From the NCBI GenBank assembly GCA_027482185.1, contig JAIXWF010000013.1, positions 1,612,001-1,676,000 on the forward strand: DNA of 64,000 bases, written 5' to 3'. Positions 9,820-44,936 of this stretch are shown piece after piece (within the stretch, counting starts at the first letter, position 1; the number at the start of each line of letters is the position of its first letter). The stretch comes from Opitutaceae bacterium (GTDB lineage: Bacteria > Verrucomicrobiota > Verrucomicrobiia > Opitutales > Opitutaceae). The position numbers and the translations under genes were made by a program. The notes under the pieces are model-generated. The model ran no database searches. It saw nothing but the letters and a program-made list of their open reading frames with translations, and was not told the origin of the DNA.

Positions 9820-9827
9820 CGCGCCCC

Positions 9828-12780: not shown

Positions 12781-12800
12781 CCCCGCGCTACCATCACGAA

Positions 12801-13448: not shown

Positions 13449-13531
13449 CCAGCCCGCCGCTAAAAGCCTTGCGGCACCGCAAGCGTTTGCCCAATAGGTT
13501 TCACCTTCCGACCGGACCACTTTCCTTCTCC

Positions 13532-14116: not shown

Positions 14117-14154
14117 GTTCCCCTCGCCTCTCCGCCCGCGCCGCGCGGGACGAC

Positions 14155-14185
14155 AAAAAGCCCCGGATTGCTCCGGGGCTTTTTT
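14155..14185. terminator. Bidirectional intrinsic terminator between pal and the M20 peptidase gene
   Basis: AAAAAGCCCCGGA and TCCGGGGCTTTTTT form a perfect stem around a TTGC loop, with a six-T run on the plus strand and a five-A run on the other side. It lies between two convergent genes and can serve both. Confidence 0.9.
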
Positions 14186-14211
14186 GTGTCCGTACGTCGC
14201 GGATACGGCGG

Positions 14212-15585: not shown

Positions 15586-15627
15586 CCGGCCAAGGTTGCG
15601 GAAACGGCCGCGCGCGCAAACCGGAAA

Positions 15628-15698
15628 CGCCGCCGGCGGCGTTCTTGAGCCGGGCGAATGGAGCGTAAGGGCGGCGCGAATACCGGGCGCCGCCCGCG
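15628..15698. other. Two GC-rich perfect hairpins after the purH stop
   Basis: GGGCGGCGC and GCGCCGCCC (within 15672-15698) form a 9-bp stem directly after the purH stop on the minus strand, and an 18-base palindrome AACGCCGCCGGCGGCGTT lies at about 15628-15645. Neither is followed by a T-run. They may be processing or attenuation structures in the purH-M20 peptidase spacer. Confidence 0.4.
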
Positions 15699-15702
15699 CC
15701 GC

Positions 15703-17262: not shown

Positions 17263-17367
17263 GCGGCGCGCATCCAAGAGCGAAACGACGGGTGCGAAAA
17301 GCGGAATTGCGGGCCATGCCGCGATTTTCCCGCTTTCGGAAATCGGATTTCCGGCTTTGGTAGCGCC

Positions 17368-17751
17368 GTGCCCCGCTCCCGCGAACTGCCCGGACTCTCC
17401 GCCCGCCTCGACAAGCTGTGTTACCACCACGGCGGGGCGAGCCTGCCCGCGGACAAGCCGCACGCCTTCGTCTACTTCATCACGATCAGCAACGGTTCCG
17501 ACCGCACCGTCACGCTGCTCGGCCGTAAATGGGTTGTGCAGCACGCCGACGGTTCGCAACTGGTCATCGAGGGCGACCGGATCGTCGGAGAAACGCCGCG
17601 GCTCGAGCCGGGCGAGCAGTTTTCCTACAACAGTTACCATGTCACCGGGACCGACGCCTCGGCCCTGGGCAGTTTCCACGGCGTCGACGAGCTCGGCCAC
17701 CGTATCCACGTGGTGCTGCCGGTGTTCGCCATGTCGATTCCGCGGGCCTGA
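17368..17751 (+). CDS. apaG: ApaG domain protein
   Basis: The 127-residue product matches the small fibronectin-III-like ApaG fold (RKWVVQHADG, IVGETPRLEPGEQFSYNSY, HGVDELGHRI). ApaG was linked to Co/Mg resistance in enterics, but its biochemical function is unclear. I use the GTG at 17368 because it is the first start codon that places LDKLCYHHGG at the usual distance, and the frame is open only through unrelated sequence upstream, antisense to purH. Length is as expected for ApaG (about 125). Confidence 0.88.
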   Translation: MPRSRELPGLSARLDKLCYHHGGASLPADKPHAFVYFITISNGSDRTVTLLGRKWVVQHADGSQLVIEGDRIVGETPRLEPGEQFSYNSYHVTGTDASALGSFHGVDELGHRIHVVLPVFAMSIPRA

Positions 17752-17831
17752 ACCGGCGGCGGCGACGCGATTCGTCACCGGCAAACTTCGTTCTCGTTCT
17801 TCGCCCGCAAATTGTTCTTTCTGGCCGATTC

Positions 17832-19190
17832 ATGAAGCTAACAGACCTGAACCGCGACGGCGGCATTGGTGCCAATTCGCTGTTCATCCAACTCGGCGAT
17901 CTCAATATCCTCGTCGATTGCGGGCTGAATCCGAAGAAGGTGGGCCGTCTGGCGACGCCCGACCTCAAACCGCTGCGCGGCGTCACGCTCGACCTGATCA
18001 TCATCACGCACTGCCATTTGGACCACATCGGCAGCCTGCCGGTCGTGATGCGCGAGCATCCGAACACGCCCGTGCTCATGACGACGTCGAGCCGCATGCT
18101 GATCGAGCGCATGCTGCACAATTCCGCCAACGTGATGGTGCGGCAGAAGGAAGAGGAAAACATCCCCGACTACCCGCTTTTCACGCACGACGAGATCGAC
18201 CGTTGCGCGAAGCGCCTCAACGGCCTGCCGTTCGGGCACGCGAAGCAGTTCCGCGGGGCCAAGGACGGCGTCGAGATCATCCTCCACCCGGCCGGCCACG
18301 TCGCCGGCGCGGCGGCGGTCGAGATCCGGCACAAGCACCGGCACATCTTCTTCACGGGCGACGTGCTCTTCGAATCGCAGCGCACCCTCGGCGGGGCCAA
18401 GTTTCCCGCCGGCCATTTCGACACGATCGTCATGGAGACGACGCGCGGCACGACGGAGCGCCCGCTCGGCAAGGAGCGCGTCAACGAAGTCGCTCGCCTC
18501 GTCGCGGCGATCAACGACACAATCCAGCGCGGCGGTTCGGTGCTGATCCCGGTGTTCGCCCTGGGGCGCATGCAGGAGATCTTCGCGATTATGCACGACG
18601 CGCGGAAGTTCGGCCGGCTGGTCGAATGCCCGATCTACAGCGGCGGCCTCGGCATCGATCTTTCGGACTACTTCGACGAGATCGCGCGCAAGACGAAGCA
18701 CGTGCAGTTCAGCCGCGGAATTCTCAAGGACCTGAAACTGAAGCCCGTGCCCCGCAAGCTGAAGGCCGGCGAAGATCCGCAGCAGAACGGCATCTATCTC
18801 GTGAGCTCCGGCATGATGGTCGAGCGCACGCCGAGCTACACGCTGGCCTCCGGCCTCCTCGGCAACGCCCGCAACCTCATCGCCTTCGTCGGGTATTGCG
18901 ATCCGGATACTCCGGGCGGCCACCTGCTGGCGGCCAAGCCGGGCGACGATTTCGTTTTCGAAGCCGCGCACGTGAAGCAGAAGGTCAAAGCCAAGGTCGA
19001 GCGCTTCGAGTTGAGCGGCCATGCCGACCGCGAGGAACTGCTCGAGTTCGCGGTGCAGACGGGCGCGCGCTCCATCGTTTTGACCCACGGCGATCCGGCG
19101 GCCCGCGCGTGGTTCGTCGAACAGCTCAAGACCCAGGCGCCGAAATCCAAGGTCCTCGACCCGGTGCCGCTGCAGACGTACCAAGTCTGA
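17832..19190 (+). CDS. Metallo-beta-lactamase/beta-CASP family nuclease-like protein
   Basis: The 452-residue protein has the zinc motif THCHLDH (with IIITH start), a second histidine motif PAGHVAGA, TGDV, and a beta-CASP insertion with SSGMM and ELSGHADREEL near the C-terminus. This is the architecture of the CPSF73-like RNA-processing nucleases. Bacterial members are usually single-subunit ribonucleases, but the substrate here is unknown. It starts 80 bp after apaG. The stop is followed immediately by a perfect 9-bp hairpin and a GTTGAAAG array. Confidence 0.9.
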   Translation: MKLTDLNRDGGIGANSLFIQLGDLNILVDCGLNPKKVGRLATPDLKPLRGVTLDLIIITHCHLDHIGSLPVVMREHPNTPVLMTTSSRMLIERMLHNSANVMVRQKEEENIPDYPLFTHDEIDRCAKRLNGLPFGHAKQFRGAKDGVEIILHPAGHVAGAAAVEIRHKHRHIFFTGDVLFESQRTLGGAKFPAGHFDTIVMETTRGTTERPLGKERVNEVARLVAAINDTIQRGGSVLIPVFALGRMQEIFAIMHDARKFGRLVECPIYSGGLGIDLSDYFDEIARKTKHVQFSRGILKDLKLKPVPRKLKAGEDPQQNGIYLVSSGMMVERTPSYTLASGLLGNARNLIAFVGYCDPDTPGGHLLAAKPGDDFVFEAAHVKQKVKAKVERFELSGHADREELLEFAVQTGARSIVLTHGDPAARAWFVEQLKTQAPKSKVLDPVPLQTYQV

Positions 19191-19192
19191 GG

Positions 19193-19240
19193 CTCCGCGC
19201 GCCGGGCGCGCGGAGAGGTTGAAAGTTGAAAGGTGAAGGA
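19193..19240. repeat. Stop-proximal hairpin plus GTTGAAAG array
   Basis: CTCCGCGCG (19193-19201) and CGCGCGGAG (19207-19215) form a perfect 9-bp stem beginning two bases after the stop codon of the nuclease-like gene. It is followed by units GTTGAAA-GTTGAAA-GGTGAAG at 19216-19240. There is no T-run. Confidence 0.7.
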
Positions 19241-19276
19241 CCGGAGCGGCGCGGGGCGCGCCCTCTCAATCCAGTT

Positions 19277-19373
19277 CCTTCCTGTTCATCCGCTGAACTC
19301 ATCCTGTTTGTCCTGTCCCGGTTTGGGCGAAGACAGGACGGACAGGAGGGCGGAGAAAGGATTTACAGGAAGG
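19277..19373. repeat. Opposed-arm array of the TCCTGT family
   Basis: The left arm repeats TTCCTGTTCATCC / ATCCTGTTTGTCCTGTC (19277-19318). The right arm is its approximate reverse complement, GACAGGACGGACAGGA...GGATTTACAGGA (19332-19373). The arms enclose only about 13 bases and lie between two convergent genes. Confidence 0.65.
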
Positions 19374-19391
19374 CGATGGCGCAGGCCCAAT

Positions 19392-20189
19392 TCAGCCGCG
19401 CATCAATTTTTCGAGCCGGTCGCAGCGCGCGGGGCTGCCGGCGACGTAGACGATGCGTTTCATCTTCAGGTCGAAGGTGCGCATGGGCAGTTGGGCGCCG
19501 TTGAGAAAACGCACTTCGCCGCCGCCGCCGCGCACGAGCGGGATCGCCGCGGCGAGGTCCCAGATCTTCACGTTGTAGTCGACGCACCCGTCGAGGAGAC
19601 CGGCGCCGACGTAGGCCAGGTGCAACGTCGCGCTGCCCAGGCCGCGGATCTTGTAGTTCCCCAGAATGCCCGTGGCCATCGGCAGGAGCGTTTTGTCGAA
19701 GGGACTGTGGAAACCGATGAGGCTTTCCTTCGAATCCGGCGCCGTGCTCACGCGGATGGCGCGGTCGCCGTCGAACACGCCGAAGCCCGGCCCGCCCTTG
19801 AGCAAAGAGCGCCGGCTGAGGTCGTAGACCCAGCCGTAGACGGGTTCGCCGTTTTCGCAGAGGGCGAGCGCGATCGCGCAATGCGGGATGCCGAGCGCGA
19901 AGTTGTTCGTGCCGTCGATCGGATCGAGGACCCAGGAAAACCGCGCGGTCACCGGGATCGGAGCGTCGGTCTCGGCCAACTCCTCGCTGAAATATTGGTC
20001 CTGAGGAAATTCGCTCCCGAGGGCGCGGAAGATGTTTTCCGAAATCGCGACGTCCACGGCGGTGACGCGGGTGCCGTCGGATTTCCAGCGGCTCTCGGCC
20101 CGGCCGAATTCGCGGTGGAGCAATTCGGTTTGGCTGAGGACGGCGCGTTCGGCGGCGGCGAGGCGGGCGAGGAGTTCGGGAGCAGGCAT
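19392..20189 (-). CDS. Inositol-monophosphatase-family phosphatase
   Basis: The 265-residue protein has the metal-binding motifs SEEL, VLDPIDGTNNF and IWDLAAAIPLV of the IMPase/FBPase/CysQ superfamily. Members dephosphorylate inositol phosphates, histidinol phosphate or PAP, and the sequence does not settle which. Lengths and motif spacing are normal. It begins 28 bp after the FmdB-like gene on the same strand. Confidence 0.9.
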   Translation of the reverse strand: MPAPELLARLAAAERAVLSQTELLHREFGRAESRWKSDGTRVTAVDVAISENIFRALGSEFPQDQYFSEELAETDAPIPVTARFSWVLDPIDGTNNFALGIPHCAIALALCENGEPVYGWVYDLSRRSLLKGGPGFGVFDGDRAIRVSTAPDSKESLIGFHSPFDKTLLPMATGILGNYKIRGLGSATLHLAYVGAGLLDGCVDYNVKIWDLAAAIPLVRGGGGEVRFLNGAQLPMRTFDLKMKRIVYVAGSPARCDRLEKLMRG

Positions 20190-20217
20190 GGAAAAGGAGC
20201 GGGAAAGAAACGCGGGC

Positions 20218-20772
20218 TTATTCGTAATCGTAGAGCTGCGGATCGCGGCGCGGCGCCGTGCGGCGAATCTTGAACTTATGGCGCGGTTCCTTCGGGTCCG
20301 GCTTCTCGCCGGCTGCGCCCGGCGGACCGAAGCCGTCGTCGTCCATCCCGCCGCCGGCGGGGTCGGCCTCGCCGCCCATTTGGTTTTCGAGTTCCTCGGG
20401 ATCGGCGCCTTCCTCGAGCTTGCGCACGACCTCCTCCATCTCGCCGTCGATTTTCTCGCCGGTGAGTTCGGACATGCGGCGCATCATGCGGGCCATGGCC
20501 TTCGGATCGTTTTCGTCGACGCTGGCGAATTCCGATTCCATCGCACCCAGCGCCGCCTCCAGCTTCGGATCGTCGGCGCCGGCGGCGTCGGGAGCGCTCG
20601 ACGGCGGCGGCTCCTCTGCGGCGCCGGTGATGGCGAAAGCGGAGACCAGTTTCCGCAGTTTGAATTTCGGGTTGTCCGGGCAACGAGGCACCGTTTTTCC
20701 CTGGGCCAGGGTCTTCGCGTAGAACTGATAGATCGTGTGATTGTCCGCGCAGTAGTACTCGTAGATCGGCAT
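20218..20772 (-). CDS. FmdB-like zinc-ribbon protein
   Basis: The 184-residue protein begins MPIYEYYCADN, the start of FmdB/CxxC zinc-ribbon proteins, but the ribbon is degenerate: single cysteines remain in YYCADN and PRCPDN where the family has CxxC pairs. The rest is acidic and Gly/Pro-rich with a helical patch (MARMMRRMSELTGEKI). The start at 20772 is fixed by the conserved N-terminus. It is the first gene of an apparent pair with the IMPase-family gene. No function is established. Confidence 0.75.
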   Translation of the reverse strand: MPIYEYYCADNHTIYQFYAKTLAQGKTVPRCPDNPKFKLRKLVSAFAITGAAEEPPPSSAPDAAGADDPKLEAALGAMESEFASVDENDPKAMARMMRRMSELTGEKIDGEMEEVVRKLEEGADPEELENQMGGEADPAGGGMDDDGFGPPGAAGEKPDPKEPRHKFKIRRTAPRRDPQLYDYE

Positions 20773-20897
20773 AGACGCTCCCGTTGGTAACGGCCCGGGC
20801 CGCGAGCGCAAGCGGCGCGCGATGTGGTCCTGTTTTCGAACCGGCACTCCCGGCTTGGCCGCGGCCGTCTCCGGTCCCAAGGTCGGGGTTTCCCCGC

Positions 20898-21965
20898 GTG
20901 ACTCTCCTGCCCCGTCGCTTCTTGGCCCTCGTGTCGTTCCTGTCGCTCCACTTCGTCGCGAACGGTGCCGTCCCGGCGCCGCTCGCGTGGCGCCAACTCC
21001 CGCCCCTGCCCGACCGCGAAGGCTTCGCCGGCAGCTATGCGGGCGCGAGCAACGGCGACCTGATCGTGGCCGGGGGCGCCAACTTTCCGGACCGCCGGCC
21101 TTGGGAAGGCGGGACGAAAACCTGGTACGACCACGTATTCGTGCTGGCCGCCGAAAACGGCGCGTGGCGGCGTTCCGACCGGCTGCCGCGCGCGGGCGGC
21201 TACGGTGTCTCCGTCAATCTGACCGAAGGCGCGGTCTTCATCGGCGGCGGCGACGCCGCGCGGAATTTCAACGACGTCTGGCTCGTGCGCAGCGAGGCGG
21301 GCCGCGTGACGTTCACCGCGTGGCCGGCCCTGCCGCGGCCGCTCGCGCTGATGGCCGGGGCGGCCGCGGGGCGAAAGATCTACGTGGCGGGCGGGCAAAC
21401 GACACCGACGGCAACGCAGGCCGAACGCATTTTTCTCCTGCTCGACGCCGATCGGTTGAACGAGGGTTGGAAGATCCTGCCGGCCTGGCCGGGCGCGGCG
21501 CGCATTTTTCCGGCGGTCGGCACGGCCGACGGCGCCGTTTACCTCTTCGGCGGTGCCGCGCTCACGGCCGACGCCGCCGGCAAAGCGACGCGCGAGTGGC
21601 TGCGCGACGCCTACCGCTACGACCCGACCAACGGCTGGCGCCGGATCGCCGACTTGCCGCGTGTGGCGGTCGCCGCGCCCTCGCCGGCGCCGAGCCATGG
21701 CGGCGAACTGCTGGTGCTCGGCGGCGACGACGGGGCGCAGGTCGCAGTGGCGCCGACGGCGCACCGCGGTTTCCCGCGCGACATGCTCGCTTTCAATCCC
21801 GCGACGGAACAATGGCGCCGCGCCGGCGACATGCCGTTTTCCCTCGTGACGACAACGCTGACGACGTGGCGCGGCCGGATCGTGATTCCCGGAGGCGAAG
21901 CCCGCCCGGGTGTGCGTTCAACGCAGGTCTGGGCGACGGAAGCGGCCGCGGGAGTTGAAAAATGA
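20898..21965 (+). CDS. NanM-like cyclically permuted mutarotase (Kelch propeller), exported
   Basis: The 355-residue protein has a signal peptide and a Kelch-type beta-propeller. The start of the mature region (GFAGSYAGAS, VAGGANFPD, PWEGGTKTWYD, then RAGGYGVSV) matches the cyclically permuted mutarotase family related to NanM, which interconverts anomers of N-acetylneuraminate in the periplasm. I chose the GTG at 20898 because it opens a well-formed signal peptide (TLLPRRFLALVSFLSLHF). The neighbouring lyase, sialidase and receptor support a sialic acid role. It is divergent from the FmdB-like gene. Its stop codon lies within a GTTGAAAAA repeat unit. Confidence 0.85.
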   Translation: MTLLPRRFLALVSFLSLHFVANGAVPAPLAWRQLPPLPDREGFAGSYAGASNGDLIVAGGANFPDRRPWEGGTKTWYDHVFVLAAENGAWRRSDRLPRAGGYGVSVNLTEGAVFIGGGDAARNFNDVWLVRSEAGRVTFTAWPALPRPLALMAGAAAGRKIYVAGGQTTPTATQAERIFLLLDADRLNEGWKILPAWPGAARIFPAVGTADGAVYLFGGAALTADAAGKATREWLRDAYRYDPTNGWRRIADLPRVAVAAPSPAPSHGGELLVLGGDDGAQVAVAPTAHRGFPRDMLAFNPATEQWRRAGDMPFSLVTTTLTTWRGRIVIPGGEARPGVRSTQVWATEAAAGVEK

Positions 21966-21981
21966 AAACCGAAATTTGAAG
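21952..21981. repeat. GTTGAAAAATGAAAACCGAAATTTGAAG array over the mutarotase stop
   Basis: A run of imperfect TTGAAA/ATGAAAA/CGAAATTTGAAG units contributes the TGA stop of the mutarotase gene, as at malQ. Confidence 0.6.
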
Positions 21982-22017
21982 GAGCGGATTGGCACGGCGG
22001 AGGCCGCGTTTCGGAGG

Positions 22018-22158
22018 TAGCCGCAAGAACGCGCAAAAGGCGCAAGATCGGGTCGACACAGGTGCACCTGACTGGGCGCGCCGGCACGAATCCCAAAAGC
22101 ATGAGGGTTCACGATCTCGCGGAAACTCTTGCGTCTTCTGCGCCTCTTTGCGGCCAAG
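22018..22158. repeat. Opposed-arm array of the GCGCAAAAGGC family
   Basis: The left arm (22018-22049) contains GCCGCAAGAACGCGCAAAAGG. The right arm (22125-22158) is the opposite orientation, CTTCTGCGCCTCTTTGCGGCC. The 75-bp spacer contains the perfect 12-base palindrome CAGGTGCACCTG at 22059-22070. The element occupies most of the 284-bp gap between the mutarotase and regulator genes. Confidence 0.7.
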
Positions 22159-22249
22159 CCCGGTTGCCTGGGGATTCACCGTGCGGCCCCGCAGCGGGTT
22201 TCGACGTGAATCCTGTCGCGCGTTCAGCCAATGCTTGGATCTTTCCCGC

Positions 22250-23329
22250 ATGACGCTCATTCCGCACCGCACCGTCGCCGGCCAAATCGCGGCACAGCTG
22301 CGGGCCGAAATGGAGCGCGGGGCCTGGCAGGAGTGGTTGCCGAGCGAACGCGATCTCAGCCGCACGCTGCAGGCGAGCCGCAACACGATCCGCGCCGCTC
22401 TGGCTCAGCTGAAGGCCGAGGGATTTCTCCGTCCGCATCGCGGTCTCGGCAACCGCATCGAGCCGCGGCGCGGTCCGGTCGCGGCACCGGCGGAGGCCCG
22501 CAGCGTCGGCGTCGTCATTCCCGAGCCGATCGGCCGCCTGCGGCCGCACATCGCGCTGTGGATCGACGAACTCAAGGACCTGCTCATCGAGGAAGGCCTC
22601 CGGCTCCGGCTGCACGAGGGCCGGCAGTATTTCCAGGGCAAGCCGGACCGCGCGTTGGCGCGGCTGGTCGGCCAGCACCGGCACGCGGCGTGGGTGCTGA
22701 CGCTGTCTTCCGAGGCGATGCAGCGCTGGTTTGCCGCCCGCCGCCTGCCCTGCGTCGTCGCGGGGTCGGTTTACCCGGGCGTGCCCCTGCCCTGCTGCGA
22801 TCTCGACTACCGCGCGAGCTGCCGGCACGCGGCGGGCGTATTGTTACGGCTGGGACACCGGCGAATCGCGCTGCTCAACCGCGAGGAACGCCGCGCCGGC
22901 GACGTCGACAGCGAAGTGGGTTTTCTCGAGGGCGCGAAAAGCTCTTCGCGGGCCGAGATTCGGGCCGAGGTCGCGTATCACCGCGACGATGCCGTCTCCG
23001 TTGGCCGGGCGCTGAAGCGCCTGCTTGACCAGCCGGCGCCGCCGACGGCCATCGTGGTCTGCAATTCGTACGCGTACCTGTCCGCGATCAGCTGGCTGGC
23101 CCAACGCGGCCTGCGCGTGCCGCGGGACCTGTCGTTGATTTCCCGGGACGACGATCCGTTTCTCGATGCCCTGACCCCTGTGCCGGCGCGCTATGTGGCG
23201 GGCCCCCGCCAATTCGCCACGCGGATCCTCGGCCCTTTGCTGGGCTGGATAAACGGACGGAGCGGAACAGGAAAACCGGCGCGGCTGTTGCCGCGCTTTG
23301 CGGCGGGCGGATCGATTGCGGCCGTTTGA
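22250..23329 (+). CDS. GntR/LacI hybrid transcriptional regulator of the sialic acid locus
   Basis: The 359-residue protein has an N-terminal GntR winged helix (VAGQIAAQLRAEMERGAW, LPSERDLSRTLQASRNTIRAAL, GNRI) and a C-terminal periplasmic-binding-protein-like effector domain of LacI type (SVGVVIPE, AYLSAISWLAQRGLRVPRDLSLIS). Such proteins are dimeric, sugar-responsive regulators. It converges on nanA with only 12 bp between stops. The 11-bp inverted repeat in front of the TonB receptor is the best candidate for its operator. Confidence 0.88.
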   Translation: MTLIPHRTVAGQIAAQLRAEMERGAWQEWLPSERDLSRTLQASRNTIRAALAQLKAEGFLRPHRGLGNRIEPRRGPVAAPAEARSVGVVIPEPIGRLRPHIALWIDELKDLLIEEGLRLRLHEGRQYFQGKPDRALARLVGQHRHAAWVLTLSSEAMQRWFAARRLPCVVAGSVYPGVPLPCCDLDYRASCRHAAGVLLRLGHRRIALLNREERRAGDVDSEVGFLEGAKSSSRAEIRAEVAYHRDDAVSVGRALKRLLDQPAPPTAIVVCNSYAYLSAISWLAQRGLRVPRDLSLISRDDDPFLDALTPVPARYVAGPRQFATRILGPLLGWINGRSGTGKPARLLPRFAAGGSIAAV

Positions 23330-34895: not shown

Positions 34896-37877
34896 TTAGG
34901 GCGCGGCGGCGCGCCAGTGGCGGAGGGCTTGGCCGGTGAGGGACTCGGCGCAGGCTTCTAGGTCGGCGCGGGGGCCGGCGAAGATCAGGTTGCCGCCGTG
35001 GCGGCCGCCGCCGGGGCCGAGGTCGACGATCCAGTCGGCGAGGTTGATGACGTCGAGGTTGTGCTCGATCACGATGACGGTGTTGCCGGCGTCGCGCAGT
35101 TTGAAGAGCAGATCCATCAGTTTCTGGATGTCGGTCCAGTGCAGGCCGGTGGTCGGTTCGTCGAGGATGTAGAGCGTCGAGCCCTGCTGGCGTTTGCTCA
35201 GTTCCAACGAGAGCTTGATGCGTTGGGCTTCGCCGCCGGAGAGCGTGGTGGCGGATTGGCCGAGCGTGAGGTAGCCGAGGCCGACGGCGTCGAGGGTCTC
35301 GAGTTTGTCGATCACGCGCGGGATGTTGCGGAAGAGACGGATGGCGTCGCGCACCGTGAGATCGAGGACATCGGCGATCGATTTGCCGTGGAAGAGGACC
35401 TCGAGCGTTTCGCGGTTGAAACGCCGGCCGCCGCAACTCGGGCACGGCGCGTAGGCGTCGGGCATGAACTGCATGTCGAGCTTGATGACGCCGTCGCCCT
35501 GGCAGCGCTCGCAACGGCCGCCGCGGACATTGAAGGAGAAGCGGCTCGCCTTGTAGCCGCGGATCTTGGCGAGCGGGACCTGGGCGTAGAGATCGCGGAG
35601 CAGCGGCAGCAGATCGACGTAGCTGGCGGGATTGGAACGCGGGCTGCGGCCGATGGGCTCCTGGTCGACCTGGACGAGGCGGTCGAAGAAATCGAGGTTC
35701 TCGATGTGGCGGTGCTGGAGCGGGAGCGAACGCGCACCGTTGAGTTTGCGGGCGGCCTGGGCGGCGAGGATGTCGTTGACGAGGGTGCTCTTGCCGGAAC
35801 CGCTGACGCCGGTAACGCAGGTGAGCAGGCCGACGGGAAACTTCGCGTCGATGCCGCGGAGATTGTGGGCGCGGGCTTCGCGGACGGTGAGCCAGGCGCC
35901 GTCGGGGGCTTTGGGCTTCGCCTCGCGGGTGACGGCGAGTTTGCGCGCGAGGTAGGCGCCGGTGCGCGAGACCTTCGCGGGCAACTTCATGCAGTCGGCG
36001 GGCGAACCTTGGAACAACAGCTGCCCGCCTTCGGTGCCGGCCTCGGGGCCGAGCTCGATGAGTTCGTCGGCGAGGCGGAGCGTGTCCTCGTCGTGCTCGA
36101 CGACGACGACCGTGTTGCCGCGGTCGCGGAGGGCGACGATGGTCTCGAGGAGCTTGCGGTTGTCGTGCGGGTGCAGGCCGATGCTCGGTTCGTCGAGGAC
36201 GTAGATCACGCCGATGAGGCCCATGCCGAGTTGGGTGGCGAGACGCACGCGCTGGGCTTCGCCGCCGGACAAGGTGCCGTAGTCGCGCTCGAGGGTCAGG
36301 TAGCCGAGGCCGGTCTCGAGGAGGAAATGCAGCCGCTGTTCGATGCCGGTGACGACATCGCGGATGGCGTCGTTGCCCGCGTGAAGCTCGGCCAGGCCGC
36401 GCGCGAAGGCATGGGCCTCGGCGATGTCCATGGCCATGAAGGCGGGAAATGATATGGGGGAACCCGGAGTGCGGAGACCGGAGACCGGAGTGTCTGAACC
36501 GGAGGGCGAAGACCGGAGACCGGAATCCGGAATGTTCGCGCCGGCTGTTTCCGGTTTCCGGTTTCCGAATTCCGGTTTTCCAATCCCGACCGCTCCGCTC
36601 CGCGCGTTGAGCCGGTGGCCGTGGCATTCCGGGCAGGGGCCGCTGACCATGAAGGTCGAGAGGCGGGCGCGGAAGCCGTCGCTGTCGGTGTGGCGGAAAC
36701 TCTCCTCGAGGTCGGCGATGATGCCGGGGAAGGTCGCCGCCTTGGCCTCGCGCATGCGGCGCAGCTTGAACGCGAACTGCCGCTCGCCGGCGCCGAAGAG
36801 CAGGTGCTGCCGCGTTTTCTCGGGGAGGTCCTGCCACGGGACGTCGGCGTCGAAGGGCAATTGCTCAGCGAGCTGCTTCAGCAGCGCGTTGTGCTTGATG
36901 ATGAGATTTTTCCCGCCGATGCGCCAGGGCTTGATCGCGCCTTCGCGGACGGATTTGGCCGGGTCGGCGACGATCAACTCGGGGACAAACTTCAGTTTCC
37001 GCCCGAGGCCCTCGCAGGTCGGGCAGGCGCCGTCGCGGTGGTTGAACGAAAAATGCTTCGGCGTGAGTTTCTCGAACACGTCGCCGCAAAGTTCGCAGGC
37101 GCGGGCTTGGCTCAGCGGCAATTCGCGCCAGGGGGCGTCGGCGGATTTCTGGGCGAGCACGATCGCGCGGTCCTTGCCTTCGCGAAAAGCCAACTCGAGG
37201 GAATCGGCCAGGCGGCTGCGTTGTTCGGCATTGGCCACGAGGCGGTCGATCACGAGATCGACGGCGAGTTCGCGGGTGCCGGCGCCGGTGGGGATGAGTT
37301 TCGGGTCGTCGAGGGTCCTGATCTCGCCGTCGATGCGCACGCGCTGGAAACCGCGTTGGCGCAGCCGGGGCAATTCGTCGCGGAGTACCGAGGGCTTCGC
37401 CTTCAGGCCGGGAGCGAGCAGCATCAGGCGTTCGCCCGGGCAGACGGCGAGGACGTGGGCGACGTTGTCGTCGAGAGAGCGTTGCAGGACGCGGCCGCCG
37501 TCCTTGGGACACGTTTGTTCGCCGAGGAGGGCCCAGAGTAATTGCGCGTAGTCGGCGATCTCGGTGGCCGTGGCGATGGTGCTGCGGGGGCCGCCGGCGC
37601 CGGTGCGCTGCTCGATGGCGAGCACGGGCGACAGGCCGTGGATGAAATCGACATCGGGCCGCTTGAGCTGGTCGAGGATCTGGCGGGCCTGCGTGCTGAG
37701 CGACTCGATGTACTTGCGGTAGCCCTCGGCGTAGAGGGTGTCGAAGGCGAGCGACGATTTGCCGGAGCCGCTGGGGCCGGTGACGACGATGAGTTTGCCG
37801 CGGGGCAGCCGGAGCTCGAGGTTCTTCAGGTTGTGCTCCCGGGCGCCCTTGATGTGGATGTGCGTCGCGGCCTGCAT
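34896..37877 (-). CDS. uvrA: Excinuclease ABC subunit A with an in-frame repeat insertion
   Basis: UvrA recognises bulky DNA lesions in nucleotide excision repair. The 993-residue protein has two ABC modules: Walker [10 protein letters not shown] near the N-terminus and GVSGSGKST in the second half, LSGGEAQR signatures, and zinc-binding Cys pairs ([29 protein letters not shown]). The start at 37877 matches the family N-terminus. About residues 428-473 (36455-36597) are not normal UvrA sequence but translate a low-complexity array with GGAAACC units on one side and CCGGTCT units on the other. The flanks [13 protein letters not shown] and FPAFMAMDI are normal. The reading frame is intact, so the protein may still fold. 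Confidence 0.95.
36463..36582. repeat. Opposed-arm GGAGACC/GGTTTCC array inside uvrA
   Basis: The left arm (36463-36530) repeats GGAGACCGGAGACCGGAG and the right arm (36548-36582) repeats TTTCCGGTTTCCGG in the opposite sense, around a 17-base spacer. The whole block lies within the uvrA reading frame without a stop. Confidence 0.85.
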
Positions 37878-38080
37878 GGTGGACCGGCACCGTTGCGCAA
37901 ATCGCCGCCGCGTCAAAGCCGGAGCAGTCGCGAAACGCTTGCGCTGTCGTATCTTCGCACTTGCGACAGGGGGCCGCCCGCTCTTTGTGTGCGTTTGGAC
38001 ATATCCCCGCTGCGGTCGGACCGAACCCCCTGCCCTTTGCCCCGGACCGATCCGTGTGCGGAGTTTTTTCCAAAACCCTC

Positions 38081-40051
38081 ATGAACGACACCCAGCTGTT
38101 TCGCGGATTCACGCGGCCCGTGCGCGCGGCTCTCCTCGCCGGACTTTGCGCCGGCGCGGCCGGCCCCCTGGCGGCCTTCCAGTTCGAACTCGGCGAAGTC
38201 AAAGGCAGCTTTGACTCGACTCTCTCGATCGGCGGGCTCTACCGGTTGAAGAATCCGGACCCCTCCTATTACGGCACCACCACGTCGTTCAACGGCGTGC
38301 TCGGCCGCCAGAACTCGGTCAACACCGACGACGGCAACGTCAATTACGGCAAGGGCTGGGTCTCCCAGGTCGTCAAAGGCAACCACGACCTCGAATTGAA
38401 GTTCGGGCAAAACTACGGCGCGTTGGTCCGCGGGTATTGGTTCAAGGACCTCAAGGCCGACGAGACCCGCCGCACGCTCCTTTCCGATCAGGCCGAGGAC
38501 CGCGTCGTCAAGGGCGCCGAGCTCCTCGACATGTACGCCCGCGGCAAATTCACCGTCGCCGGCACGATGCCCCTCGACCTGCGCATCGGCCGCCAGGTGC
38601 TGAGCCTCGGCGAAAGCACGTTCATCCCGAACGGCATCAACGTCGTGAACTCCGCGGACCTCTCCAAGCTCCGCGTGCCCGGTTCCGAACTCAAGGAGGC
38701 GCTCCTGCCCGTCAACATGGTCAAGGCGTCGCTCGGCGTGACGCAGAACCTGACGATCGAGCCGTTCTGGTTGCTCGAATTCCGCCGCAACGAACTCGAG
38801 CCCGCCGGCACCTATTTCTCGACGAACGACTTCGCCACCCGCGGCGGCCGCACGGTCTGGCTCGGCTTCGGCACCGTCGCCGACCAAGGCAGCACGCTCG
38901 GCGGCATCGCCCGCGCGAACGACCGCGACGCCAACAACTACAACCAGTACGGCGTCGCCGCCCGCTGGCTCGCTCCGAATCTCAACAACACGGAATTCGG
39001 TTTCTACTACGCCAAGTACAACAGCCGCTCCCCGGTGATCAGCGCGCGCACGCCGCTCGGCCCGATCAACACCGACCTCACCGGCCCGCTCACCGCCGCC
39101 TTCATCCGCGGCGGCGTGCCCGCCGCGGCCGCCGGTCCGCAGGCCGCCGCGATCTTCCAGATGATCGTGAAGTCGCAACTCGCCCCCGCGACGCTCACGC
39201 CGGTCGAGGTCGCCACGCTCCAGAGCGCCTCCGTCCAGGCCGCCATCGCCGGCGCCCGCCAGATCGCGTTGCTCACCGCCGCCGCCAGCGGCCGCTACTT
39301 CACCGAGTACGTCGAGGACCTCACGATGGGCGGCATCAGTTTCAACACCTCCCTCGGCAACACCGGCATCTCCTGGCAGGGCGAAGTTTCGCTCAAGAAC
39401 GACGTCCCGCTGCAGGTCGACGACGTCGAGATCCTCTTCGCCACCCTCTCCGCCCTCGCCCCGAATTTCGGCCAGGCCAACCAGATCGGCAGCTTCCTCG
39501 GCCAATACAACCGCGAGATCAGCGGCTACCGCCGCCACCGCGTCTGGACCGCGCAGAGCACGCTGACCAAGGTCTTCGGCCCCACGCTCGGTTCGCAGCA
39601 ACTCACGCTCCTCGGCGAGGTCGGCGGCGTCTGGGCCAATCTGCCCGACAAGAACACGCTGCGCTACGACGGCACCGCGACGTTCTCCTCCGCCTCGGCC
39701 GCCGCGATGGCGCTGGCCGGCTCGCCGACGATTCCCGCGACGCCCTCGCAGGCCTTCGCCGACAATTTCTCCTGGGGCTACCAGATCCTCGCGCGCCTCG
39801 ACTACAACAACCTCTTCCCGAACGTGAACGTGCAGCCCACGGTCGCGTTCACGCACGATGTCGGCGGCAACACGCCCCTGCCCCTCGGCAACTACATCCG
39901 CGACCGCAAGAGCATCAACGTCGCCGTCGAATTCACCTACCGCAACGCCTGGTCCCTCGAATTGCGCTACGTGAACTTCTTCGCCGCCGGCCGCTACAAC
40001 CTCCTCTCCGACCGCGACTACGTCGCGACCACGGTGAAGTATTCGTTCTGA
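38081..40051 (+). CDS. DUF1302 outer-membrane beta-barrel protein, envelope module
   Basis: The 656-residue protein has a signal peptide and an N-terminal [17 protein letters not shown] segment, typical of DUF1302 proteins, and ends in aromatic YSF like a barrel. An Ala-rich insert of about 70 residues lies in the middle (around [11 protein letters not shown]). DUF1302 proteins are predicted outer-membrane channels usually encoded next to DUF1329 proteins. Here the DUF1329 gene follows after 50 bp. The start at 38081 opens the signal peptide. It is divergent from uvrA across 203 bp. Confidence 0.85.
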
Positions 40052-40101
40052 GTCATTGCCGGGCGTTCCCCCGCCCGGTCCAACCCCTTTTTCCGAACGT
40101 C

Positions 40102-41466
40102 ATGAATTCCCTTTTCCGCCCCTGCGCCCTCGCCGCCGCGTTCACCGCGGTCCTCGCGTCCGGCCACGCCGCCGTCTCCGATGCCGAAGCCGCGAAGCTC
40201 GGCAAAGAACTCACTCCGCTCGGCGGCCAGATGGCCGGCAACGCCGACGGCTCAATCCCGGCTTGGACCGGCGGCATCACGACGCCGCCCGCCGGCTACA
40301 AGCCCGGCCAGCATCACCCCGATCCCTTCGCCGCCGACCAGCCGCTTTACACCGTCACCGGCGCCAACGCCGCGCAGTATGCGGGCAAACTCACCGCCGG
40401 CCAGGAGGCGACGCTCAAGGCGTATCCGTCCTACAAACTCACGGTCTATCCGACGCGCCGCAGCGCCTCGAACCCGCAGCGCGTGTACGACGCCACCAAG
40501 GCCAACGCCACCGCGGCCAAACTCGTTGCCAACGGCAACGGCATCAGCGGCGCCGTCGTCGGCGTGCCCTTCCCCATCCCGCAGAGCGGCCTCGAGGTCG
40601 TCTGGAATTCGCTCACGCGCTTCCGCGGCGTCGCGGCCTCGCGTTTCATCGACCAGGCCGCCGTCGAGCGCGGCGGCGGTTACCAGATGGTGAAGTTCGA
40701 CGACGAATTTCTCTTCAACTACACGCGGCCCGACATCACCGCGAAGGAATTGGAAGAGAGCAACACGCTCATCTTCTTCAAACAGGCCGTGACCGCCCCG
40801 GCCCGCCTCGCCGGCACCATCTTGCTCGCGCAGGAAACGATGGACCAGGTCAAGGAACCGCGCCGCGCCTGGGTCTACAACGCCGGCCGCCGCCGCGTCA
40901 CCCGCGCCCCCAACGTCGCCTACGACAATCCCGGCACCGCCGCCGACGGCCAGCGCACGAGCGACCAATTCGACATGTTCAACGGCGCGCCCGACCGCTA
41001 CGAGTGGTCCATCGTCGGCAAGAAAGAGATGATCGTGCCGTACAACGCCTACCGCCTCCACAGCGACAAGGTGAAGCATGCCGACATCCTCAAGCCGCTG
41101 CACCCGAACCCCGACCTCGCCCGCTACGAACTGCACCGCGTCTGGGTGATCGAGGCCAAGTTGAAGCCCGGCACCTCGCACCTCTATTCGCGCCGCACCT
41201 TCTACATCGACGAGGACAGCTGGCAGATCCTTGCCGCCGACCAATACGACGGCCGCGGCCAGATCTGGCGCGTGTCCGAGGCCCATTGCATCAACTATTA
41301 CGATGCGCAGACCTTCTGGAGCACGCTCGAGGTCCACCTCGACCTGCAGAACGGCCGCTACCTCGCCATCGGCCTCGATAACGAGAACAAGATGTACGAC
41401 TTCACCCTGAAGCGCACCCCGGCCGACTACACGCCCGACTCCCTGCGGCGCGACGGCCTGCGTTGA
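40102..41466 (+). CDS. DUF1329 periplasmic LolA-like protein, envelope module
   Basis: The 454-residue protein has a signal peptide and matches the DUF1329 family: GKELTPLGGQMAGN near the N-terminus, then PAWTGGI, and the C-terminal DSWQILAADQYDGRGQIWRV. DUF1329 has a LolA/LolB-like half-barrel fold that can bind lipids. This is established for the family by structure prediction, and the cargo is unknown. It sits between the DUF1302 barrel and the propeller/RND genes, as in other bacteria with this module. A GTTGAGAG array follows the stop. Confidence 0.85.
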   Translation: MNSLFRPCALAAAFTAVLASGHAAVSDAEAAKLGKELTPLGGQMAGNADGSIPAWTGGITTPPAGYKPGQHHPDPFAADQPLYTVTGANAAQYAGKLTAGQEATLKAYPSYKLTVYPTRRSASNPQRVYDATKANATAAKLVANGNGISGAVVGVPFPIPQSGLEVVWNSLTRFRGVAASRFIDQAAVERGGGYQMVKFDDEFLFNYTRPDITAKELEESNTLIFFKQAVTAPARLAGTILLAQETMDQVKEPRRAWVYNAGRRRVTRAPNVAYDNPGTAADGQRTSDQFDMFNGAPDRYEWSIVGKKEMIVPYNAYRLHSDKVKHADILKPLHPNPDLARYELHRVWVIEAKLKPGTSHLYSRRTFYIDEDSWQILAADQYDGRGQIWRVSEAHCINYYDAQTFWSTLEVHLDLQNGRYLAIGLDNENKMYDFTLKRTPADYTPDSLRRDGLR

Positions 41467-41476
41467 GGCGGGAGCG

Positions 41477-41518
41477 CCGGAGTTGAGAGAAACGAGTTGA
41501 GCGTTGAGTGATCGAGCC
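41477..41518. repeat. GTTGAGAG array after the DUF1329 gene
   Basis: Units GAGTTGAGAGAAACGAGTTGAGCGTTGAGTG follow a short GGCG..CGCC hairpin 1-12 bases after the stop codon. It lies inside the presumed operon. Confidence 0.65.
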
Positions 41519-41605
41519 AACGAAACCCATGCGTCGCTGCCCCGATAGCCGCCAGGCGCGCGGTTTCCGTTTCGAAGCCAACGCCGCTTCACGGCGCCGG
41601 TCGGC

Positions 41606-42583
41606 ATGACTTGGATGCAACGCATCGGGCGGGCGATCAGCCCGCCCCTTTTTGTCCTCGTCGCGGCCGCCTCCCTGCGCGCCGCGCCGCCGCCGAAGGT
41701 GCTCGTGCTCGACGCCGCCCTCGCGGCCGACAACACCGTCGTCGCCGTCGGCGAACGCGGACTCGTGCTGCGTTCCTCCGACCACGCGCAATCCTGGACC
41801 ACGGCACCCTCCGGCGTCGGCGCCGCACTCACCGCCGTGGCCTTCGCCCCCGGCGCCGACCGGCGCACGGGCTGGGCCGTCGGCCACGAGGGCGTCGTGC
41901 TTGCGACGACCGACGCCGGCGCGACCTGGCGGCGGCAATTTCCCGAGGGCGGCGACGCGGATTCCTTCCTCGATGTCATCGCGCTCGACGCGAAGCGCGT
42001 CCTCGCCGTCGGCGCCTACGGACTCTTCGCCGCGAGCAGCGACGGCGGCGCCACCTGGCAGCGCCGCAAGATCCGCGACGACGACTACCATTTCAACCGC
42101 GTCACCCGCGGCCCGGCCGGCACGCTCTACCTTGCCGGCGAGCGCGGCACCTTGCTCAAGTCGGCCGACGACGGCGCCACGTGGCAGCCGATCCCCGCGC
42201 CGTACGAAGGTTCGTTCTACGGCATTCTGCCGCTCGACCGGCGCACCTTGCTGGCCCACGGCCTGCGCGGACATGTCTTCCGGTCCGCGGACGACGGCGC
42301 CACCTGGCGGCGGGTGGAGGTCGAGGCCCCGGTCCTGCTCGCGACCGCGCTGCGGCTGAAGAGCAATTTCATTCTGGTCGGCGGCCACGCCCGCGCGCTT
42401 TGGCTGAGCCGCGACTACGGCGTCGGTTTCAAGCCGGTCCCCGCCGCGCCGACGACCGCCGTGGCCGAGTATCTGGAACTTGGGGACGGCGCCGTGCTCG
42501 CTGTCGGCGAGGCCGGCGTGCAACGCCTCGAACTTTCGACGTTGGTGCCCGAAGCCGCGGCCGCGCCGGCGGCGCCGCGCTGA
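41606..42583 (+). CDS. YCF48-like beta-propeller protein, envelope module
   Basis: The 325-residue protein has a signal peptide and repeated propeller blades with D-x-G-x-T-W Asp-box-like turns (TTDAGATW, SSDGGATW, SADDGATW twice). It belongs to the YCF48/HCF136-like family first known from photosystem II assembly, but here it accompanies an RND exporter and is likely a periplasmic accessory protein. The start is 10 bp-linked to the next gene: its stop lies 10 bp before the RND start. Confidence 0.85.
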   Translation: MTWMQRIGRAISPPLFVLVAAASLRAAPPPKVLVLDAALAADNTVVAVGERGLVLRSSDHAQSWTTAPSGVGAALTAVAFAPGADRRTGWAVGHEGVVLATTDAGATWRRQFPEGGDADSFLDVIALDAKRVLAVGAYGLFAASSDGGATWQRRKIRDDDYHFNRVTRGPAGTLYLAGERGTLLKSADDGATWQPIPAPYEGSFYGILPLDRRTLLAHGLRGHVFRSADDGATWRRVEVEAPVLLATALRLKSNFILVGGHARALWLSRDYGVGFKPVPAAPTTAVAEYLELGDGAVLAVGEAGVQRLELSTLVPEAAAAPAAPR

Positions 42584-42593
42584 TTCTTTGCCC

Positions 42594-44936
42594 ATGCTCG
42601 AGCGCTTCACCACGTGGATGTTCCGGTACCGCACGCCGCTCGTGCTGGGTTTCGCGTTGCTCACCGCGGTGATGGCCTGGTTCGCCACCCACCTGCGGGT
42701 CGACGCCAGCTTCAACAAATCGCTGCCGCGCGGCCACGAGTACATCCGCACCTTTGAGCAGTACCAACGCGAGTTCGGCGGCGCCAATCGCGTGCTCGTC
42801 GCCTTGATGGTCCGCGAGGGCGACATCTTCAACGAGGCCTACTTCAAGGAACTGAAACGCGTGACCGACGAGGTCACGTTTCTCCCGGCCATTGACCGTC
42901 CGCAGGTCCAGTCGCTCTTCACGCCCAACGTCCGCTACATCGAGGTCGTCGAGGACGGCTTCGCCGGCGGCAACGTGATCCCCGCGGACTTCGCGCCCTC
43001 CGCGGCTAACTTCGCCAAAGTCCGCGAGAACATCGTCAAGTCCGGCCGCCTCGGCCAATTGGTCGCCAACGATTTCTCCGGCGCGATTGTCAGCGCGCAA
43101 TTGCTGGAAATCGATCCGCAGTCGGGCGCCAAAGTCGACTACACGAAGGTCGCCGCCGGGCTCGAAGCCATCCGCAGCCGCGTCGAGCGCGAGAGCGGCG
43201 GAAAGATCGACGTCCGCATCATCGGTTTCGCGAAGATCATCGGCGACGTCAGCGACGGCGCCCGCGGCGTGCTCATGCTCTTCGGCGTCGCGATCTTCGT
43301 CACGACATTGCTCGTGTGGAATTACGCCGGCCGCTGGAAACTCGCCGCCGCGCCCGTCGTTTGCTCGCTCGTCGCCGTCGTTTGGCAGCTCGGCGGCCTC
43401 ACCGCTTTGGGCTACGGCATCGACCCGTTTTCGATTCTCGTGCCGTTCCTCGTCTTCGCGATCGGCGTGAGCCACGGCGTGCAGAAGATCTGCACGTTCC
43501 GCAACGAGGTCTTCAAGGGCCAGGACGGCCCCGCCGCCGCCAAGGCCGCGTTCATGCAGCTGATTTTGCCGGGCATCGTCGCGCTGCTCACCGACACCGT
43601 CGGCTTCATCACGATGCTCGTGATCAAGATCCCGACGATCCAGGAACTCGCGATCACGGCCAGCCTCGGCGTCAGCGTGATCGTGATCACGAACTTCTTC
43701 CTTTTGCCGATTCTCCTCTCCTACCTGCGCTTGCCGCCGTCGTACGGCCAATGGGTCGCGCAGCGCCGCGCCAAGGGCGACGCCCTGTGGGAACGGCTGG
43801 CGAAGGGCATGAAGCCGAAGCCCTCGATGGTGATCATCGTCCTCTGCTTCGCGCTCGGCGGCTGGGCGTTCTGGAAATCGTCCGAGGTCCGCATCGGCGA
43901 CACCCAGGCCGGCGTGCCGGAGCTGCGCGCGGATTCGCGCTACAACCGGGACACGCAGGTCATCACTTCGAAATTCAGCATCGGCGTCGACATCCTCTCC
44001 GTGATCGTCGAATCCGTGCCCAACGGCTGCGTCGACCACGAGGTCGTTTCCCTGATCGACCGTTTCGAGGGCACGATGCGCCAGGTGCCCGGCGTGCAAT
44101 CCGTCGTTTCCCTTCCCGGCATGGCCAAGATGGTCAACGCGGGCTACAGCGAGGGCTCTTTGAAGTGGCGCATTTTGCCGAAGAACCAACAGGCGCTCGC
44201 GCAGGCCGTCTCGCCGATCGAAACCGCCACCGGCCTGCTCAACTCCGACGGCAGCGTGATGCCCGTGCTCGTTTTCCTCGCCGACCACAAGGCCGAGACG
44301 CTGCAGGCCGTGACCGACGCCACCAAGGCCTTCGCCGCCGCGAACCCGCACCCCAAGGTCAAACTCCGCCTCGCCAGCGGCAACGCCGGCGTGATGGCCG
44401 CGACCAACGAAGTCGTGGCTGCGGCCGAAAAACCGATTCTGCTCTGGGTCTTCGGCGCCGTGATTGTGCTGTGCTTGGTGACATTCCGCTCCGTCAAGGC
44501 CGCCCTTTGCATCGTGCTGCCGCTCGCGATCGTGAGCTACCTCGCCTACGTCGTGATGGTGGCCCTCGATATCGGCCTGAAGACCTCGACGCTGCCCGTC
44601 GTCGCCCTCGGCGTCGGCATCGGCGTCGACTACGGCATCTATATTTTCGCGCGCCTGCACAGCGCGCTCGAGGCGGGCGAGTACTTCGAGGACGCGATGT
44701 TCGTCGCCCTGAAGGACGCCGGCGCGGCCGTGGTGTTTACGGGTCTGACGCTGGCGATCGGCGTGAGCACGTGGGTGTTTTCGGATCTCAAGTTCCAGGC
44801 CGACATGGGGCTGCTGCTGACGTTCATGTTCCTCGTGAACATGGTCGGCGCGATTCTGCTGCTGCCGGCGATGGCGCGTTGGTTCTGGCGCCATCACACG
44901 GGCCGCACCGTGGCGCCGTTTCCGATGCGCAAGTGA
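42594..44936 (+). CDS. MMPL/RND superfamily exporter, envelope module
   Basis: The 780-residue inner-membrane protein has the two-fold RND layout: a first transmembrane helix (VLGFALLTAVMAWF), a periplasmic loop, a cluster of five helices (around LVPFLVFAIGVSHG), then a second half with a single helix, loop and cluster (LPVVALGVGIGVDYGIYI). The GVGIGVDY motif corresponds to the proton-relay region of MMPL/HpnN-like exporters of lipids. The three upstream genes supply periplasmic and outer-membrane partners. The cargo is not identifiable from sequence. Confidence 0.92.
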   Translation: MLERFTTWMFRYRTPLVLGFALLTAVMAWFATHLRVDASFNKSLPRGHEYIRTFEQYQREFGGANRVLVALMVREGDIFNEAYFKELKRVTDEVTFLPAIDRPQVQSLFTPNVRYIEVVEDGFAGGNVIPADFAPSAANFAKVRENIVKSGRLGQLVANDFSGAIVSAQLLEIDPQSGAKVDYTKVAAGLEAIRSRVERESGGKIDVRIIGFAKIIGDVSDGARGVLMLFGVAIFVTTLLVWNYAGRWKLAAAPVVCSLVAVVWQLGGLTALGYGIDPFSILVPFLVFAIGVSHGVQKICTFRNEVFKGQDGPAAAKAAFMQLILPGIVALLTDTVGFITMLVIKIPTIQELAITASLGVSVIVITNFFLLPILLSYLRLPPSYGQWVAQRRAKGDALWERLAKGMKPKPSMVIIVLCFALGGWAFWKSSEVRIGDTQAGVPELRADSRYNRDTQVITSKFSIGVDILSVIVESVPNGCVDHEVVSLIDRFEGTMRQVPGVQSVVSLPGMAKMVNAGYSEGSLKWRILPKNQQALAQAVSPIETATGLLNSDGSVMPVLVFLADHKAETLQAVTDATKAFAAANPHPKVKLRLASGNAGVMAATNEVVAAAEKPILLWVFGAVIVLCLVTFRSVKAALCIVLPLAIVSYLAYVVMVALDIGLKTSTLPVVALGVGIGVDYGIYIFARLHSALEAGEYFEDAMFVALKDAGAAVVFTGLTLAIGVSTWVFSDLKFQADMGLLLTFMFLVNMVGAILLLPAMARWFWRHHTGRTVAPFPMRK

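Follow-up and report, generated by a model that had tools for sequence, protein, structure and literature searches.

What a bacterium moves through an envelope route encoded by four adjacent genes, and in which direction, is the question raised by a cassette in an Opitutaceae genome (Verrucomicrobiota; G000). The cassette occupies positions 38081-44936 of the window, by which we mean the whole 64,000-nucleotide stretch of DNA that was analysed, and stands beside a divergent uvrA gene, which probably has no role in the transport system:

34896..37916, minus strand: uvrA, divergent neighbour, marking the usual site of the cassette (TIGR00630 match, G000:C3:1646974-1649859)
38081..40051, plus strand: AmeA-type outer-membrane barrel, DUF1302, 656 aa (PF06980, 501 bits; signal peptide judged by eye)
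40102..41466, plus strand: AmeB-type periplasmic LolA-fold carrier, DUF1329, 454 aa (PF07044, 520 bits; LolA_like, 33 bits)
41606..42583, plus strand: AmeC-type periplasmic YCF48/BNR propeller, 325 aa (PF14870 PSII_BNR/YCF48, 63 bits)
42594..44936, plus strand: AmeD-type HAE3-like RND/MMPL inner-membrane transporter, 780 aa (PF03176 MMPL, 114 bits)

All four frames are intact from ATG to stop and co-directional, with intergenic gaps of 50 bp (A-B), 139 bp (B-C) and 10 bp (C-D), and DUF1302 and DUF1329 each have a single match in this genome. The original prediction, which placed DUF1302, DUF1329, YCF48 and RND/MMPL proteins together here, was correct as to place, families and shared strand, and the trans-envelope anatomy that it drew from them (pump, LolA-like carrier, propeller and barrel) is backed by family scans and, for the carrier and the barrel, by structure models. 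AmeC scores 64.5 bits with the Ycf48 equivalog model (cut-off 326), while the top NCBIfam match of the RND protein is TIGR00921 (HAE3; 174 bits, under the cut-off of 351.9); a profile search matched AmeD to structures of MmpL4/5, HpnN and MmpL3. Across an alignment of 173 AmeD rows, in which some genomes appear twice, S293-H294 is kept in 170/170 readable rows and D679-Y680 in 166/166. Hydropathy yields 14 raw segments, a figure that includes overlapping and merged ones and is not to be read as a span count, and long gaps at ~35-221 and ~431-606 that are compatible with two periplasmic loops.

The four proteins, scanned with Pfam and NCBIfam, include neither a membrane fusion protein nor a TolC-type channel, the partners that an HAE1 tripartite efflux pump would have in its cassette. 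The barrel is not a FadL channel, as its sole Pfam family is PF06980, without PF03349, and PF03349 had no match at E 0.001 in G000. The hopanoid and sterol transporters HpnN and BstA are related RND proteins with partial NCBIfam matches, but the window protein scores far under their equivalog cut-offs (76.7 bits against 751.85 for HpnN, 32.4 bits against 1400 for BstA of the sterol transporter BstABC). Hopene cyclase, moreover, is over its cut-off in 0/150 sampled Opitutaceae genomes, with weak matches in 12, and the hopanoid link raised in the original prediction is therefore unsupported for this family.

The genes have counterparts in other bacteria. AmeABCD of Castellaniella defragrans 65Phen, published as a monoterpene-tolerance exporter (PMC6394551), comprises a DUF1302 protein, a DUF1329/LolA-like protein, a COG4447 protein and an HAE3 RND protein of 605, 451, 316 and 787 aa (656, 454, 325 and 780 aa in the window), and the window cassette, with its HAE3-like RND protein, has a matching composition in the identical order. 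Unlike the Castellaniella genes, which lie in a monoterpene-metabolism island, it stands beside uvrA, and it belongs to another phylum. Pseudomonas putida PP_0765, PP_0766, PP_2018 and PP_2019, which share related Tween 20 growth phenotypes, likewise include DUF1302, DUF1329, a periplasmic protein and an efflux transporter, but fall by gene number into two separate loci, and their interaction is predicted only (PMC10866462). The 'nanopod' cluster of the benzene-degrading ORM2a has DUF1329, YCF48-related, MMPL and porin-like proteins but also two extra genes between them, one annotated as a universal stress protein; benzene is the cargo proposed there, with the direction left open (PMC13101534). 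The earlier statement that the cargo was not settled was fair, although it overlooked both the Castellaniella deletion and assay (PMC6394551) and the P. putida Tween 20 genes (PMC10866462).

By model, AmeB has a LolA fold and AmeA is an Occ-like barrel. The AlphaFold model of AmeB (pLDDT 87.4) resembles LolA3 over residues ~160-450 (9tp6, Z 20.2) and, over the same region, the DUF1329 structure 4z48 (Z 18.6). That of AmeA (pLDDT 85.8) forms an Occ/OprD-like barrel, with OccK2 as a fold match (best VIA Z 23.0; rmsd 3.2 for 309 residues); FadL is absent among the 50 fold matches listed for it, which is no argument against a relation. Searches of PDB sequences with the AmeA sequence and an AmeB profile gave no matches. 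Occ/OprD channels serve uptake.

In Opitutaceae the cassette is an old, vertically inherited and repeatedly lost chromosomal feature, present in 79 of the 150 sampled genomes and absent from 71. The order A-B-C-D is kept in all 60 loci fetched around full-length DUF1329 matches (58 from 57 Opitutaceae genomes and two from outside the family; four reach a contig edge inside D), and is unchanged in 80 named loci as far as their contigs reach; uvrA adjoins A in 54 of the 60. Distances between UvrA proteins correlate with those between DUF1329 proteins (Spearman 0.68 in 53 genomes, against a maximum of 0.21 in 200 permutations), and both presence and absence of the cassette occur on either side of the midpoint root of a tree that includes 20 cassette-less genomes chosen by hand from the 71. 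Recent import on an island or plasmid is therefore rejected. At least seven changes of state are forced on the 73 rows of the tree. On this record the cassette is not confined to an accessory role in degradation islands. A genome of the same genus, G006, has a second cassette (locus L079), which lies among fadD/fadB/fadA-type genes, with FadB, a thiolase, an HTH/M78 regulator and a DUF4442 protein on the divergent side and FadD and FadB downstream; its DUF1329 protein branches inside Opitutaceae in a cross-phylum tree.

Beyond the window's own branch, ABCD is linked to fad and lipase genes. Among 20 newly drawn loci of the class to which Pelovirga (G500) belongs, from 18 genomes and including two whose stretches stop before D is reached, 13 carry homologues of FadD (acyl-CoA ligase), FadB, FadA or FadE, compared to none of 10 control stretches of that class (p 0.001). 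In 15 of 26 Pelovirga-group loci, a count that takes in the four discovery loci, the strand of D continues into a FadD or FadB gene, with 17-310 bp from D to the match. The link is weak in the gammaproteobacterial set (6/20 versus 1/9 controls, p 0.38). A lipase ORF lies directly upstream of A in seven loci of two classes (L200, L220, L225, L228, L242, L246 and L249, the last with a gap of ~590 bp), and L219 has a lipase fragment in addition; a lipobox pattern is found in six of the seven and GHSLG or GHSYG in all, and the L200 protein, the sole one scanned, matches PF12262 with 82 bits. Lipase matches occur in 7/40 loci of the drawn sets and 0/19 controls (p 0.08). Among the papers listed by searches of a library without most subscription journals and bioRxiv, none was seen to tie an AmeABCD-type cassette to lipase and fad genes. 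The AmeABCD kind itself was already known; what is new is the fad linkage in the Pelovirga class, the lipases upstream of A in two classes and the location of L079 amid fad genes. Systems with DUF1302 and DUF1329 turn up again and again in bacteria that degrade terpenes, aromatics or lipids. The lipase/fad neighbours join three literatures (monoterpene efflux, nanopods and benzene, and growth on Tween 20), and suggest a specific cargo that could be tested in bacteria amenable to culture. Vibrio VolA is a parallel.

The window's branch itself gives no such signal. No fad or terpene family was found among the window neighbours scanned with Pfam and NCBIfam, and fad genes lie near 0/57 Opitutaceae loci other than L079. 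Among the matches listed for the 150 family genomes, read by eye, fused FadB is present in 31 and absent from 48 of the 79 genomes with the cassette, and present in 11 and absent from 60 without it. The association (p 0.002 by genome) falls to p 0.12 by genus majority and leaves no signal in phylogenetically independent pairs (0.6 the same way and 0.5 the opposite, of 7), so dependence on beta-oxidation was rejected for Opitutaceae. With relatedness allowed for, the cassette shows no tie to FadB, and given this and the 0/57 count an acyl cargo can only be inferred here.

We read the cassette as the Opitutaceae form of the AmeABCD type of four-part trans-envelope RND system, with an acyl amphiphile as its likeliest cargo, and give this reading as a whole an even chance; for the window's branch the cargo class that we favour is long-chain fatty acids or related acyl compounds. 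AmeD, driven by protons, would move a hydrophobic, probably acyl-chain amphiphile between inner membrane and periplasm; AmeC would dock on AmeD, the LolA-fold AmeB would shuttle the cargo molecule, and the Occ-like AmeA would link the route to the outside. Complex formation, cargo, proton coupling and direction are all inferred. In favour of the acyl reading we count the families and order matching AmeABCD, the fad and lipase neighbours, L079, the Tween 20 genes and the LolA fold; against it, the lack of a fad link in the window's branch, the null FadB pairs, the weak gammaproteobacterial link, the lipase p of 0.08, the 48 of 79 cassette genomes without fused FadB, the measured substrates of relatives (monoterpenes and Nile Red) and the aromatic or other oxidative genes beside other relatives. 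More speculatively, and with well under an even chance, the ABCD branch (Opitutaceae, Pelovirga relatives and some Gammaproteobacteria) may form a proton-driven long-chain fatty-acid route with a lipoprotein lipase and FadD, parallel to FadL, of which most cassette-bearing Opitutaceae would have a solitary version beside uvrA that serves lipid homeostasis. The clues to direction conflict, Castellaniella pointing to export and the lipase-fad context to uptake.

The cassette could instead serve general efflux of toxic hydrophobics such as terpenes, aromatics and solvents, as in Castellaniella, with fatty acids one substrate of many and no specific cargo in Opitutaceae; we regard this as possible but rather unlikely. 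Castellaniella without ameABCD tolerated monoterpenes less well and accumulated more Nile Red, and betaproteobacterial relatives within aromatic regulons have been termed possible solvent-stress proteins; plasmid relatives adjoin genes for a phytanoyl-CoA dioxygenase, an FAD-dependent oxidoreductase and an arylsulfatase, and the repeated loss described above would suit a conditional trait. However, fad and lipase genes flank the Pelovirga-class ABCD branch (aromatic genes lay outside that count), and the Opitutaceae copies mostly hold one site beside uvrA. Uptake, in which fatty acids would enter by way of barrel and carrier and be placed in the inner membrane by AmeD, ready for FadD and independently of FadL, seems doubtful to a similar degree. 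It would explain the order ABCD-fadD-fadB-fadA and the lipases upstream of A, and it agrees with the closeness of the AmeA model to Occ/OprD channels, with the absence of FadL matches in the seven sampled genomes of the window's genus and with the need for P. putida genes of these kinds on Tween 20. Yet RND pumps are generally exporters, and FadL is no complement of the cassette, the two showing no association in the 150 family genomes (31:48 versus 29:42, p 0.87); in the Castellaniella deletion, moreover, Nile Red accumulation goes up, not down. Within the AmeABCD-type acyl reading, we lean slightly to efflux or homeostasis over uptake for the uvrA-linked window copy.

We judge it improbable that the cassette sends to the outer membrane a lipid or hydrocarbon which Opitutaceae make themselves, such as an ole product or some other unusual lipid. 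There is indeed an ole gene at the start of the window, as had been noted: an alpha/beta hydrolase gene, present with its 3' part and ending at 619, follows an OleA-type ketosynthase just outside (L111:11699-12721; NF006720, 441 bits). The proposed check of co-occurrence across genomes went against a link, as OleA-type matches are over the cut-off in 136/150 family genomes and the cassette is present in 79/150; an ole-linked cargo is unsupported because these genes are nearly universal and occur also among the 71 genomes without the cassette. The hopene cyclase count likewise tells against an endogenous lipid, whereas the old, vertical descent of the cassette would favour one. OleA is ~37 kb from the window cassette and within 50 kb of uvrA in 14/24 measurable cassette genomes (14/25 with G049, where the distance is ~570 kb), but also in 3/11 measurable cassette-less genomes. 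One fact does favour ole: the displaced cassette of G122 lies ~10 kb from oleA.

The cassette in the window matches AmeABCD, the published four-gene monoterpene-tolerance exporter of Castellaniella defragrans, in both gene families and gene order, and it is almost certainly a system of this kind, a judgement made by family and order. The original prediction of four genes here was borne out: they are intact, read in one direction with gaps of 50, 139 and 10 bp, and contain the named families.

38081–44936, + strand: cassette A-B-C-D (DUF1302 barrel, DUF1329 LolA-like carrier, YCF48 propeller, HAE3-like RND gene)
43470–43475, + strand: S293-H294, N-terminal half of the RND protein
44628–44633, + strand: D679-Y680, C-terminal half, the counterpart of S293-H294

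DUF1302 and DUF1329 each have a single match in the whole genome of the window. The DUF1329 model has a LolA fold over residues ~160–450 (pLDDT 87.4; Z 20.2 against LolA3, and 18.6 against a solved DUF1329 protein) and the DUF1302 model is an Occ/OprD-like barrel (pLDDT 85.8; Z 23.0 against OccK2), likenesses that are no demonstration of function. The window belongs to Opitutaceae. Among the best 80 of 590 named relatives of DUF1329, 61 have titles that place them in Opitutaceae, Opitutia or another part of Verrucomicrobia, and the other 19 come from different phyla; the nearest is from an Opitutia bacterium (L132, 96% identity). In an RND alignment of 173 rows, which includes some genomes twice, S293-H294 is present in 170/170 readable rows and D679-Y680 in 166/166. 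Residues like these have a role in proton coupling, and the invariant pairs are possibly a signature of this RND lineage.

The cassette has a preferred site in Opitutaceae. The loci we fetched number 58 within the family, drawn from 57 of its 79 genomes that have a full-length DUF1329, and two outside it. Beyond the family, a 387-genome phylum sample has a full-length DUF1329 in G257 and G417 only. The order A-B-C-D is kept in all 60, four of which stop inside D, and a divergent uvrA adjoins A in 54. The other six comprise a contig end (L054), a second copy (L079), the same-genus loci L094 and L110, which have no uvrA close by, and the two extra-family loci. In 20 cassette-less genomes, hand-picked out of 71, uvrA is followed in seven by the usual D-side neighbour c5 (within ~250 bp in four), an arrangement that looks like a vacated cassette site; the remainder have other neighbours after uvrA. 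One of the 20, L129 in genus g15, retains uvrA and an RND gene without its first 38 residues, while A, B and C are gone. In L063, of the same genus, the RND gene lies in two frames, and the cassette is apparently decaying in both; the frame of A is interrupted in L063 and L053, through decay or sequencing error. Mapped onto a 73-row UvrA tree, cassette presence and absence requires nine changes. Well-supported branches force at least seven of these, and genomes with and without the cassette occur on either side of the midpoint root. DUF1329 and UvrA distances are correlated (0.68, compared to a maximum of 0.21 in 200 permutations). This is most simply explained by a cassette that was present in the ancestor and has been lost many times.

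As to cargo, our best guess, at roughly even chances, is that the Opitutaceae cassettes would carry fatty acids or similar acyl amphiphiles, a link drawn from relatives and not from the window. In L196, L202, L209 and L211, which were picked up through sequence similarity, D is followed by acyl-CoA ligase, 3-hydroxyacyl-CoA dehydrogenase/hydratase and thiolase genes; L211 alone was family-scanned, and the genes of the others were matched to it. We then drew 20 new loci from 18 genomes of the Pelovirga class and 20 from 19 genomes of the class of gammaproteobacterial MAG G505, chosen as the best-scoring DUF1329 matches with usable contigs, with 19 stretches from such genomes as controls. Two Pelovirga-class loci were too short to reach D; in the G505 class L247 lacked C and D matches and L248 had only B. 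Homologues of fadD, fadB, fadA or fadE (tblastn, ≥80 bits) occurred in 13/20 Pelovirga-class stretches compared to 0/10 controls of that class (p 0.001), in 6/20 G505-class stretches compared to 1/9 (p 0.38), and in 1/19 controls overall, while lipase matches occurred in 7/40 drawn loci compared to 0/19 controls (p 0.08; L237 of these seven not adjacent), all p values being too kind because the loci are related. Leaving the cassette itself aside, the control stretches cover roughly double the length, a bias that runs against the claim of fad linkage. Including six loci seen earlier, the Pelovirga-class group has fad homologues in 17/26. Across the two classes, a lipase ORF is the first gene upstream of A in seven loci, plus one fragment.

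Within the family, fad matches were found in 0/57 Opitutaceae loci other than L079 and in 0/20 cassette-less loci. L079 (G006:C25:790500-810400) is the second cassette of G006, a genome of the window's genus that also has a uvrA-type copy, L080. On its divergent side lie a DUF4442 protein, an HTH/M78 regulator, a thiolase and FadB; after D come FadD and FadB, with a further FadA-like match at the stretch end and no FadE seen in the stretch. Its DUF1329 branches within Opitutaceae (SH-aLRT 94, in a quick tree of 92 rows that takes in roughly half the Opitutaceae loci fetched), and a member of the window's branch has therefore been paired with fatty-acid genes. Across the family, fused FadB is present in 31 and absent from 48 cassette genomes, compared to 11 and 60 of the rest (p 0.0018 by genome); by genus majority the present/absent counts are 11/16 vs 4/18 (p 0.12), and phylogenetically independent pairs in the family were uninformative. 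FadL showed no association with the cassette in family genomes (31/48 against 29/42, p 0.87).

Neither an ole nor a hopanoid cargo is supported by co-occurrence in the family. For ole hydrocarbons, OleA-type genes exceed the cut-off in 136/150 family genomes; for hopanoids, hopene cyclase does so in 0/150. Where both genes share a contig, oleA lies <50 kb from uvrA in 14/24 cassette genomes and 3/11 cassette-less genomes, counts that are raw as to kinship and contig extent (a further cassette genome, G049, at ~570 kb, is outside the 24). The closest pairing seen is in G122, whose displaced cassette (G122:C48:1791-13451; L110 spans 3000-22900) is ~10 kb from an OleA-type gene. In the genes running into the window from upstream (L111:4594-13620; window 1–619), FabF, two CrtI-like FAD oxidoreductases and a FabI-like reductase precede OleA and the OleB-like hydrolase; together they may form a pathway to an unusual polyene or cyclic lipid.

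The AmeABCD paper reports reduced monoterpene tolerance and increased Nile Red accumulation in a Castellaniella deletion mutant, and describes a separate HAE3 lineage with every member in such a four-gene cassette (PMC6394551). Genes of these kinds are reported as required by P. putida on Tween 20 (PMC10866462), a comparison across Betaproteobacteria assigns the four families to aromatic regulons and suggests that they act in solvent stress (PMC6449761), and a 2026 paper proposes benzene movement by a similar cluster, citing a Delftia mutant that is impaired on phenanthrene after deletion of DUF1329 (PMC13101534). Three plasmid relatives (L273–L275) have the orders B-A-D-C or B-A-C-D and neighbouring phytanoyl-CoA dioxygenase, oxidoreductase, aromatic, acyl-CoA synthetase/thiolase or arylsulfatase genes. 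Gammaproteobacterial genomes G677, G801, G864 and G875 contain six to eight DUF1329 matches, which may be substrate-specific paralogues.
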